Below, in pieces: positions 32,963-37,388 of a stretch of 64,000 nt of DNA. The DNA is from Serendipita indica DSM 11827. Its lineage: Eukaryota; Basidiomycota; Agaricomycetes; Sebacinales; Serendipitaceae. Made by a program: the position numbers and the translations under genes. Every line of letters starts with the position of its first letter. Within the stretch, counting starts at the first letter, position 1. The stretch spans positions 496,001 through 560,000 of the forward strand of contig CAJVGD010000042.1 in assembly GCA_910890315.1 (NCBI GenBank). The letters run 5' to 3'. A model generated the notes under the pieces. It saw only the letters and a program-made list of their open reading frames with translations, was not told the DNA's origin and made no database searches.

Positions 32963-33695
32963 ATGTCCAACGTTGAATGGGATTCTAAACTCGTTATCGG
33001 CAACAAGGCTCAAGCCCGCCGTCCTGTCGCCATTGCGAGCACGAGCAACTCTGCTTTGAATGGTGAGTCAGCGCTCGTCTCTCGTCTTTTCACTTGGTTC
33101 TAACGGTTCCATGTCTAGCTGTGCGTCTCTCAGAGTCTCAAATTCCTCTTAGTCTTGCTTACGTAGATATTTTTTAGGCCCGCCGCCAAGGAACCGTCGT
33201 AGGCGTCGACAGGCGCACTGCTGGTGGATCGAACAAGGCTCACCAAGGTACTTATCTGCCTTTGTTGCCATGAAAATCTCCTTCAAGTCGTTTTGGTACG
33301 CAAGCGCTGACTATTTGCCACAAAATAGGACCAGACCACCAGCGCATTGCAAAACTAGACCGTGACAACGAAGTCGCACCTCCTCCAAAGATCAACCCAG
33401 CCGTCGGAAAGGCAATGCAGACTGCCCGCCTGGCGATGCAGCTCTCCCAAAAGGACCTGGCCGCAAAAATCAACGAGAAGCAGTCTGTCCTTGCAGACAT
33501 CGAAACCGGAAAGGCGACTGCCAACCCTCAGATCCTCGGCAAGATTGAGAGGCAGCTTGGGGTCAAACTGCGGGGTATGTAGCATTCTTTCTCTCGTGCT
33601 TGGGCGCGGCAAGACTAACGGGGCGAATAGGTAACGAGATTGGGAAGAAACTGGAAGGGCCCAGGCGCGCAGCGGCATCGACCTCGACGTCGTAA
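32963..33695 (+). CDS. MBF1: Multiprotein-bridging factor 1
   Basis: Transcriptional coactivator linking bZIP activators to TBP; it also acts at colliding ribosomes in yeast. Exons 32963-33062, a 2-nt exon 33119-33120, 33178-33247, 33329-33574 and 33631-33695 give 160 residues. The N-terminal MBF1 domain (MSNVEWDSKLVIGNKAQARR; NAARRQGTVVGVDRR) and the Cro/C1-type helix-turn-helix (AVGKAMQTARLAMQLSQKDL; AAKINEKQSVLADIETGKA; ILGKIERQLGVKLRGNEIGK) are complete. The NAARRQG text matches yeast Mbf1 exactly, and is read only if the two bases CT form an exon of their own. The flanking introns are 56 and 57 nt with GTGAGT/GTGCGT donors and CTAAC/CTTAC branch-like sites. Confidence 0.92.
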
Positions 33696-33850: not shown

Positions 33851-35731
33851 TTAGGAGGCATCTGCTTCGCCAGTCCCCTACCAATTTGTCAGTGGTCTCA
33901 TGAGAGGATTTGACACGAGAAACATACATAGGATATATAATCGGGGCTCTCGCAAGCCTGGTATTCTCTGAGCAACTCTTCTACCACGGCGCTTGTCGAG
34001 AGTCAGAGACGGTAGACGAGAGATTATCTACTGACCGTGACTCGTCAAACTCTCCATAGCCACCCTCAAATATCTTCTCTTTCTTATACTGCTCCAAGAA
34101 CGCGTTTCGTTTTCTTAGTCGGTCGTATTGATCCAACATCCGCTTGAAAAGCTGCCGCCCTGTTAGCCTCTATAAAGAGTTTCGAGTTCTATACTTACCG
34201 AAGCGATACTCGTGTGGTTTGCGAGCATCAAACCACTCACACGATGGCTCGCTGCAATATAAGGTGACTTGCGTGTGAGGGCCACCTGGATGGATGCGGG
34301 TCCCCATGGGATAAAGTTTGCAAGTTGGCGTTCTCGGATACGAAGGAGGGATTGATGGACCTAGATTCTGTTACGCCGTGAAGGACCGGGGGGTTAGAGG
34401 ACGCACGTCTGTTGGATCGACATTTCCTTGGATAATATTGAGGATGCTGATGTAGCATGCAGTTTTGTTCGGTGTTGTTGATACCATTCTGTTCTTAGGC
34501 TGCAAAAGACGACGCATTACGTCTAATACCGTCGTCTTGCGTGTGGATTTGGCCTGTCGACGAGTCAGGATGCAAGTCGCTGGGTCATAAAATAGAAACG
34601 AACTTGGTCTATTTGATCACCGGTGAAGGGAGTATACGAGGTCATCAGGAAGTGGCACCGAGGAGTTGGAATGAGAGACGCGACAATGCCAACGAGGTCG
34701 TTATTCATATAACTCGGATAGCGAAGGGTTTGAGTGGACGCTGCAATAACAGTCGATACCTATTGCACCTTAGGACTATATATCATCGAGTCACACATGC
34801 ACTCACCAGTTGGTTCGTCTGGTCGAAGCTGGGATTCTGGATGTGGAGTCGGTCTGCCGCTATCCGTGCGAGCGCGCCATTGTCCAATACGACCACCGAG
34901 TCTGCATGATCCACAAGTCTTCGAAGCGTGAGTAATGAGTTGTAGGGCTGCACGACAACGTCTGGTTCGGCGTGATTAGGGAACACCGAATATGTCTGGA
35001 TGAGCTTCTTGGGGAATCGGTCGTTCAACCGCTCGAGAACAAATGAGCCGAGTCCTGATCCAGTTCCACCTGCAATAGAATGCATGAGCATGAACCCCTA
35101 ACAGTTATCAGTCTCCTCGTTATCAAGAAATGAGAGCTTTTACCTCAAGAGAGTCACTTCCTTCTGCTTCTCGGTCAACCATCTCCATAACCTCTTCGTA
35201 AATCTTCTCTCCGGCCCCATAGCCTTGAGCCCAGATGTTTCCGGCTCCGCCACCGTCCTTTGAGACAAAAATGTTCTCTGGATTGTACAGATTCGCAAAT
35301 GGAGATGTCAAAATGGTATTAATGACCTGAATAGGGCGTTATAGTCAGCGAATCGCTTAGTTAATGCCTTCGGTGTGTTCTGAGTGATCAACAGAGGACA
35401 AGACGTACTCGAGGCTCTAGATCCACAAGAATGGCGCGAGGAATATAATGCTCGTCGTCTGCTTGATAGAAGAACACGTCTTTGCGGTCGCCACCTTCCG
35501 TTGCCCATTCTTCTAGGATTCCTTCCTTGTTGATGCCATGTTCTGCACATAGTCTCTGCCAATAGACGGATCCCACTGCAGTTTGCACGCGTCGAAAGGG
35601 CCATCCGATGGTTCAAATGTCGATATTAAAGGAAACGCGTCAATGGAAACGCGTCGTAAATGATTAAAGACGAGAAACTAACTCTGGTTACCGCATTGTC
35701 CTAGTTGAACTGTGACTATTTCGCGCGGCAT
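33851..35731 (-). CDS. Gamma-tubulin
   Basis: Gamma-tubulin nucleates microtubules at spindle pole bodies. The start (35729-35731) gives [17 protein letters not shown]; the second exon gives [18 protein letters not shown]. Also visible are [19 protein letters not shown], which is gamma-type text and not alpha or beta, [16 protein letters not shown], the GTP-binding [71 protein letters not shown] and [20 protein letters not shown]. The end is [10 protein letters not shown] at the stop at 33851-33853. At least seven short introns keep frame. One intron near 35630 is about 95 nt. I saw no missing key residues. Confidence 0.93.
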
Positions 35732-35878: not shown

Positions 35879-37388
35879 TCAGCTAGAGCTTGTCGATGCC
35901 GGACTACTCTCATCCTTTGCCTGGGTGGCTTGAGCCGCTTGAGCCTCGGCGGCAACCTTTAAAACCTGGTACACGACCGAGAAATCTTTCTGCGCCAGTG
36001 TACCGTGTTTTGCGACATTTTCGTACACGTCCTTGGCTGTAGCTCCTAATATGAGTGGCGACGTGAAAGTTGACGCTGCCTGCAGCGCGAGGTTCATGTC
36101 CTAAGCCCCTGTTAGTACACCGAAAGTAGATTTACACGTCTGCCTTGCCTTGAGCATGAGTGCTGTAGCAAACCCTCCATCGTAATCTCGTGTACAGGGT
36201 GGGGAGCTATTTGGAAGCGCCCCGGGGACCGGGTTATTGACTTCAGAGCTCCAGCATCGACCTATCAGAGTCGTGAGCGTGGGGCTTAAGAGGTACCGGA
36301 AAGGGCATACCAGTTGAGCTGTTCAGGACGCCAGCCAGAACGTCTGGCTTCAAACCCATCCTCTCGCCCAGAAGCATTCCTTCAGCCACCACAATTTGCT
36401 GAACTCCCAGTATCATATTGTTGCATATCTTCGCCGCAAGCCCCGAGCCTGAGGGCCCACAATGAATGCTTCGTGCACCCATCAGGGAGAGATACGGTTG
36501 GGCCAGGGTGACAGAAGGTTGTGGTCCACCGACCATAAAGGAGAGCGTTCCAGCGCGAGCACCCGAAACGCCTTGACTCTCCGCATTAGTTTCCTGTTGT
36601 AGAAGGCAATGAAGCGTACCTCCTGAGACAGGTGCATCTACCATCATCGCACCCGCTGCCTCTGCCTTGGCGGCCACATCCCGCGCGACTTCAATATCCA
36701 AAGTCGTCGAGTCAATCAGCAAAGTTGGCTCGCCGTTAGCTAACTTAGCAAGTGCTGGAACAATCGCGTCTGCTGAATCAAGGTACGCAGACTAGTATTG
36801 TCAATCCAAGCGTCAGAGGATGAGCGAGTATTAACCTTTACTTGTGGTGACGAAGGCAACATAGTGACGAGTGTGGATGACAGAGAGACCACTCTGAATG
36901 GAATGAGAATCGAAGCGAAATGTCTAACAAACTCACTCGGCAGGACTCTTTGCCACGATGACCTCGTATTCGGGAAACTTTTCCTTCATCTTGCTTATGA
37001 TAGTCTGGGTCGCATCTTGATTGACATCGCATACGACAAATGCAGGCGGTGGATTCTGTTGTCCCCCAGCACCCGAGGTCTTTGCGGTCAACGGCGCAGC
37101 TGTCGATGCACCCGAGTCAATGGTCATCCCAGAACTACTTGAAGAGCCCGTTTGGTGTGCAACTATGGTTTTGGTGAACAAGTTCGTCGCCATTTCGAAT
37201 CCCATGCGTCCGAGACCAATGAATCCTATCGTGGTAGCTCGGTTTGCACCACTTGACAACGCATGTAATCCTCTTCGACTGTTTAAAATTGAAAGTCGAC
37301 TCCAAGAGAGAGTTGGTCTGATGCCTCTACCCCGCATTGTATATTGGACAAGAGGACTAGGGCCGCGCATTACGACGATTTTCTGCAA
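35879..37388 (-). CDS. 3-hydroxyisobutyrate dehydrogenase, mitochondrial
   Basis: NAD-dependent enzyme of valine breakdown (3-hydroxyisobutyrate to methylmalonate semialdehyde). The first ATG (37386-37388) gives MQKIVVMRGP; an internal ATG 17 codons on (MRGRGIRPTLSWS) gives a better presequence. The Rossmann fold is at TTIGFIGLGRMGFEMATNLF. The substrate loop DAPVSGG is split by a 48-nt intron before VSGARAGTLSFMVGG, and the catalytic Lys lies in GLAAKICNNM. NSSTGRCWSSEVNNPVPG and GGFATALMLKDMNLALQA are diagnostic of the family. It ends SPASTSSS. Odd for the family is a ~35-residue low-complexity insert (GSSSSSGMTIDSGAS, TSGAGGQQNPPP) between the nucleotide-binding strands. Confidence 0.92.

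Follow-up and report, generated by a model that had tools for sequence, protein, structure and literature searches.

Can a gene for a conserved protein be split by two complete introns that leave only two nucleotides between them? The question is raised by an MBF1 gene in a 64,000-nt stretch (C40:496001-560000; here called the window, to which positions refer unless a contig is named) of a fungal genome assembly of 24.7 Mb in 55 contigs. The gene lies on the plus strand at 32963–33695 and is predicted to encode a protein of 160 aa in five exons, one of which is the dinucleotide CT; with CT, the coding sequence is 483 nt including the stop codon (Table 1). The original prediction had named the gene MBF1 and had set CT between two introns, one of 56 nt with a CTAAC branch and one of 57 nt with a CTTAC branch. 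These coordinates proved exact, and the protein contains both domains by which family membership was judged: the MBF1 N-terminal domain (PF08523, 80.8 bits, cut-off 22.2) and the C-terminal cro/C1-type HTH domain (PF01381, HTH_3, 43.6 bits, cut-off 23). Yeast Mbf1 (9f9s) was the best match among solved structures (E 2.4e-34). We found no second copy of MBF1 in the genome: the four matches at E <= 1 were all pieces of the 32963–33695 gene. Both yeast Mbf1 and EDF1 are known to bind collided ribosomes (PMC7486125).

Table 1. Predicted exons and introns of the MBF1 gene, in window positions.
Feature	Position	Strand	Description
MBF1 coding exon 1	32963..33062	+	100 nt; phase 1 at its 3' end; covers residues 1–33 plus the G of codon 34
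Intron 1	33063..33118	+	56 nt; GTGAGT...TCTAG; branch CTAAC at 33100–33104
Exon 2 (CT)	33119..33120	+	2 nt; completes codon 34 to GCT (Ala34)
Intron 2	33121..33177	+	57 nt; GTGCGT...TTTTAG; branch CTTAC at 33158–33162
MBF1 exon 3	33178..33247	+	70 nt; opens GCC CGC CGC CAA, A-R-R-Q-G
Intron 3	33248..33328	+	81 nt; GTACTT...AATAG; branch CTGAC
MBF1 exon 4	33329..33574	+	246 nt; bulk of the HTH domain
Intron 4	33575..33630	+	56 nt; GTATGT...AATAG; branch CTAAC
MBF1 exon 5	33631..33695	+	65 nt; stop TAA

With CT included, the junction of exons 1, 2 and 3 reads N-A-A-R-R-Q-G, and the alignment with yeast Mbf1 (9f9s) runs without a gap across this motif, bearing out the likeness to yeast that had been proposed. 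CT forms the middle and last base of codon GCT, which encodes the first of two alanines common to yeast Mbf1 and EDF1; Ala34 and Ala35 are invariant in all three aligned sequences (the predicted protein, yeast Mbf1 and EDF1). Given the leading G, the odds of alanine for a codon completed in this way are about 1/4 by chance. By the chain ranges of the structure matches, Ala34 corresponds to Ala30 of EDF1, which falls within the portion modelled on the 40S subunit. An N-terminal helix of that portion touches rRNA helix 16 (PMC7486125), and Ala30 probably sits in this helix. When CT is skipped and 33062 is spliced directly to 33178, the frame is lost, as the original prediction had stated; the resulting ORF ends after 68 aa and matches nothing in Pfam at E <= 0.1. 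Retention of an intron also ends the protein prematurely, after 46 aa for intron 1 and 52 aa for intron 2. CT is needed for the conserved reading frame. The stronger claim that the frame continues only with CT went too far: CT does restore the frame, but so do other models.

Over positions 32990–33247 we enumerated GT/GC-AG splice models that had a single intron, a pair of introns or one intron nested in another. An open frame was kept by 5041 models, which give 707 distinct proteins. Splice sites other than those around CT left the frame open in 35 of 272 one-intron models and in many two-intron models. The CT model ranked first of the 707 against yeast Mbf1 (score 322), and first on the sum of the scores against yeast Mbf1 and EDF1 (601.5, followed by 580.5 and 576.5 for two models that both use GC donors within exon 1). 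Against EDF1 alone it ranked second of 707, with 279.5 versus 282.5 for the top model, which requires the GC donor GCGAGC within exon 1. The PF08523 score was 80.8 bits for the CT model and 70.7, 67.3, 58.6 and 53.7 bits for four rivals; the nearest product, with NARRQG (70.7 bits), loses one of the two invariant alanines and about 10 bits of Pfam score. For residues 1–34, a stretch that includes Ala34, none of 5000 shuffles equalled the match to yeast Mbf1, and only 15 of 5000 equalled or surpassed the match to EDF1. Exon 1 is very likely coding, because residues 1–34 match yeast and the alternative start at ATG 33060 yields only 53.7 bits for PF08523. Judged from the sequence, CT is not forced by the reading frame alone; frame, family and ordinary donors together force it.

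We compared the two introns with 119 reference introns of the same genome, which have a median length of 48 nt (5–95% range, 43–99 nt), a GTANGT-like donor and a CTRAY-like branch, mostly 11–14 nt upstream of the acceptor. The abundance of short introns fits the basidiomycete origin assumed in the original prediction. At 56 and 57 nt, introns 1 and 2 exceed the median, and their branch-to-acceptor distances are 16 and 17 nt, respectively. Intron 1 falls at the 35th percentile for total score and the 65th for donor positions +1 to +6, and intron 2 at the 25th and 54th, such that CT has a canonical donor, branch and acceptor on either side, with both introns within the range of the 119. By splice score alone, introns 1 and 2 together (1.43) are close to a single 115-nt intron (-0.25); the two-intron structure is preferred because of frame and homology rather than splice score. 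Use of the AG at 33176–33177 requires that an earlier AG at 33165–33166, 5 nt beyond the branch A in intron 2, be skipped; splicing at that earlier site would lengthen the exon by 11 nt and throw it out of frame.

We also ran a gene finder of our own, which is homology-free, has no minimum exon length and was trained on 264 kb of the same contig (the window plus 200 kb). Although rough (it misplaces the first acceptor of a tubulin gene, and a built-in cut-off bars donors under 0), it returned the exact five-exon structure when the MBF1 introns were excluded from site training, and did so again when the whole MBF1 gene was excluded from training. Destruction in silico of the acceptor at 33118 or the donor at 33121 cost 5.28 nats each, and led the finder to drop exon 1 and to start at ATG 33060. 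The expectation that gene finders would miss the exon was not borne out in general, since a genome-trained finder without a minimum exon length picked it, and since the BRAKER1 models described in PMC6540522 include predicted 2-nt exons; programs that impose a lower limit on exon size may still overlook it.

The frequency of such an exon by chance was assessed in three sequence sets. In the first, the six outermost bases on either side were kept and the 103-nt interior was dinucleotide-shuffled (n = 20,000); in the second, the last 25 bases, with the branch and acceptor, were fixed (n = 20,000); and the third, a real-sequence control, consisted of 20,594 overlapping 103-nt stretches, intergenic according to the gene finder, taken every 7 nt on both strands. 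With our rough intron model, on which all of these figures hinge, a frame-restoring 2-nt exon of equal or better splice score occurred in 9 of the 20,000 interior shuffles (encoding Ala in 2 of them), and a 2-nt exon of equal or better score in 14 of the 20,000 shuffles with the last 25 bases fixed (Ala in 7) and in 0 of the 20,594 intergenic stretches. Two-nucleotide exons of whatever score occurred in 1523/20,000, 1322/20,000 and 1289/20,594 sequences, respectively, and frame-restoring exons of up to 30 nt at that score in 116/20,000, 400/20,000 and 34/20,594.

A single 115-nt intron (33063–33177) would draw on the donor of intron 1 and the branch and acceptor of intron 2, all of them good, and would give the product N-A-R-R-Q-G if the assembled exon contained one surplus base, such as G 33062. 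Indeed, when one base was removed in silico, the gene finder adopted the 115-nt intron, with a score of 6.55 compared with 8.76 for the real sequence. We nevertheless consider this very unlikely: the product retains only one of the two Ala found in all three aligned sequences, with a fall from 80.8 to 70.7 bits in the Pfam score; an intron of 115 nt would rank at the 97th percentile for length; and a well-formed internal acceptor, a 2-nt gap and a donor would all be there by chance. The product N-A-R-R-Q-G is also expected from a stwintron, in which one intron sits inside a splice site (donor or acceptor) of another and no exon is kept. Such arrangements are well known from ascomycetes (PMC9024468), and four nested models with an open frame yield this product, two of them using AGT 33134–33136, an overlap typical of stwintrons. 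All four, however, depend on a GC donor (GCTGTG) or on the weak donor GTCTCA, and the product is again short of one Ala (70.7 bits). In the one of the four that we scored (internal intron 33135–33177), the donor is below all 119 references, from which donors under 0 were barred, and the external intron is at the 1st percentile. A stwintron is recognised by an internal intron that interrupts an external splice element, whereas the best model here consists of two complete introns 2 nt apart. We consider a stwintron extremely unlikely.

Exon 1 might instead be untranslated, with a start at ATG 33060–33062; removal of a single 115-nt intron would then yield a protein of 127 aa that begins M-A-R-R-Q-G. 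The frame of this model is open, and it is the structure to which the gene finder turned once the internal sites were destroyed. Its price is the conserved N-terminus, whose match to yeast no shuffle equalled; PF08523 drops from 80.8 to 53.7 bits and the coding frame of exon 1 is left without a purpose, so that we give it hardly any credence. Were CT skipped in an mRNA read from the usual start, the ribosomal shift required would be +1, and might be made at AAT-G-GCC as a programmed frameshift; AAT-GGC is not, to our knowledge, a slippery site. Yeast Mbf1 itself is described as a suppressor of +1 frameshifting (PMC7486125), but the frameshift product would be short of one Ala (70.7 bits), and the splice signals flanking CT would be unexplained. 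The probability of such a frameshift is close to nil.

The explanation that we favor, and regard as very probable, is that MBF1 is split by two complete U2-type introns 2 nt apart, with CT as a constitutive 2-nt exon that is presumably retained in the mature RNA. Both introns would then fall in the codon pair GCT-GCC (Ala34–Ala35), intron 1 in phase 1 and intron 2 in phase 0. Intron definition is expected because the introns of this genome are very short (median 48 nt, n = 119), and each of the two would be recognized independently; exon definition is needless, and the exon need not pose the challenge to exon-definition models that had been claimed for it. The introns would probably be removed in succession, because two spliceosomes cannot flank 2 nt simultaneously, and either order would be workable, because the flanking "exon" of each intron is merely adjoining RNA. 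CT differs from an RS-exon, in which the first splicing step recreates a donor precisely where the exons join (PMC6224609): once intron 1 is gone, the next donor, GTGCGT, lies 2 nt beyond the junction. A CT-skipped transcript would carry a frame-shifted ORF of 68 codons and would probably be a target for decay. In junction sequences across CT, AATGCTGCCCGC would indicate inclusion of the 2-nt exon, and AATGGCCCGC or AATGCCCGC would be incompatible with it.

There is a slim chance that CT acts as a switch, with inclusion giving full-length MBF1 and skipping giving either an mRNA destined for decay or an N-terminally short MBF1. ATG 33060–33062, at the end of exon 1, is out of frame when CT is present and in frame when CT is absent (M-A-R-R-Q-G, 127 aa). 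Use of this ATG upon skipping of CT is speculation, and its start context, with T at -3, is poor. The short form would miss part of the N-terminal ribosome-binding segment.

Exons shorter than a codon have already been verified in plants (1 nt), and predicted 2-nt exons are mentioned in another basidiomycete. For Arabidopsis APC11, work in plant cells with reporter constructs established a constitutive 1-nt exon, and the authors argue for intron definition and successive intron removal (PMC4674806). The MBF1 exon is similar in being shorter than one codon, in lying between two introns and in the sequential removal proposed for them; by contrast, it is 2 nt rather than 1 nt, is in a fungus rather than a plant, and is predicted from sequence. 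One-nucleotide exons are described in plant APC11 and VPS55 (PMC8831610). According to the same source, the VPS55 microexon is absent from annotations, and its omission, like that of CT in MBF1, deprives a conserved protein of its N-terminus; the VPS55 exon is kept across land plants and is backed by RNA-seq and RT-PCR.

Among fungi, the closest likeness is in Phlebia radiata, also a basidiomycete, for which BRAKER1 with RNA-seq predicted exons down to two nucleotides, the relevant part of the article giving no specific gene or validation (PMC6540522). Among the articles consulted on short exons or MBF1 introns, this was the only one in which 2-nt exons were met, and further fungal cases may be published; "microexon" occurs once each in PMC4014442 and PMC3990503, in the matching text as an aligner setting. 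The shortest P450 microexon given for Phanerochaete chrysosporium is 6 bp (PMC1184071), and the microexons of Tuber melanosporum are codon-sized (named in PMC4986451), compared with 2 nt in MBF1. The Trichoderma Xlr2 microexon is described as a regulated switch (PMC11121469), whereas CT is proposed to be constitutive; some fungal genes with short exons are reported to show alternative splicing (PMC1184071, PMC11121469, PMC4986451). Stwintrons (PMC9024468) resemble the MBF1 pair in being two adjoining introns that need successive removal; the internal intron of a stwintron, however, splits or adjoins an external splice element and nothing is kept, whereas the MBF1 introns are complete and two bases are kept.

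The CT exon overturns no splicing model, since plants are known to have exons of this kind and another basidiomycete has been mentioned as having them. If confirmed by RNA, it would be a clean fungal sub-codon exon, housed in a gene that is compact and conserved and has short introns, and the order and fidelity of intron removal in MBF1 would be measurable by simple RT-PCR. It is also a test case for annotation tools, as one missed dinucleotide loses the conserved N-terminus of MBF1.

We found no fungal relative in viral_contigs or genome_contigs; the genome set contains no relatives of this genome. Homologue searches returned seven viral-contig loci and three prokaryote loci, all 10 of which match only query residues 78–153, the C-terminal part with the HTH. 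A tandem origin of introns 1 and 2 was rejected, as their mutual similarity was reached by 129 of 500 shuffles, with no sign of duplication, and a repeated (introner-like) intron was rejected because a 501-nt probe matched only itself. The window contains no Rfam family at gathering thresholds, and a single fold of 33043–33197, computed without a control, showed nothing readable as presenting or hiding the CT exon.

Tiny exons are rare in this sequence, and CT may not be the only one. Internal exons of up to 5 nt numbered 3 of 322 in gene-finder genes of at least 450 nt: the CT exon, a doubtful 4-nt exon and a 5-nt exon in a cytochrome P450 gene. The 5-nt exon, ATTGG, is predicted at C40:339123-339127 (minus strand, locus L010) between two 45-nt introns, and the P450 protein scores 155.6 bits against PF00067, compared with 148.7 bits without the two residues concerned (6.9 bits gained). 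The 4-nt exon at C40:305416-305419 is likely an artefact, being preceded by a 2-nt first exon and followed by a weak intron, and the corresponding protein matches no Pfam family at E <= 0.001. The neighbour of MBF1, arranged tail to tail with it, is a tubulin gene (33851–35731, minus strand; Pfam Tubulin, 181.5 bits), which we take to be gamma from its N-terminal motif. A small exon hidden in its predicted 140-nt intron (35543–35682) was considered and rejected, as by eye there is one ordinary intron, 35576–35682, with the acceptor at 35576 placed by motif. At 35879–37205, also on the minus strand, lies a 3-hydroxyisobutyrate-dehydrogenase-like gene (PF03446, PF14833).
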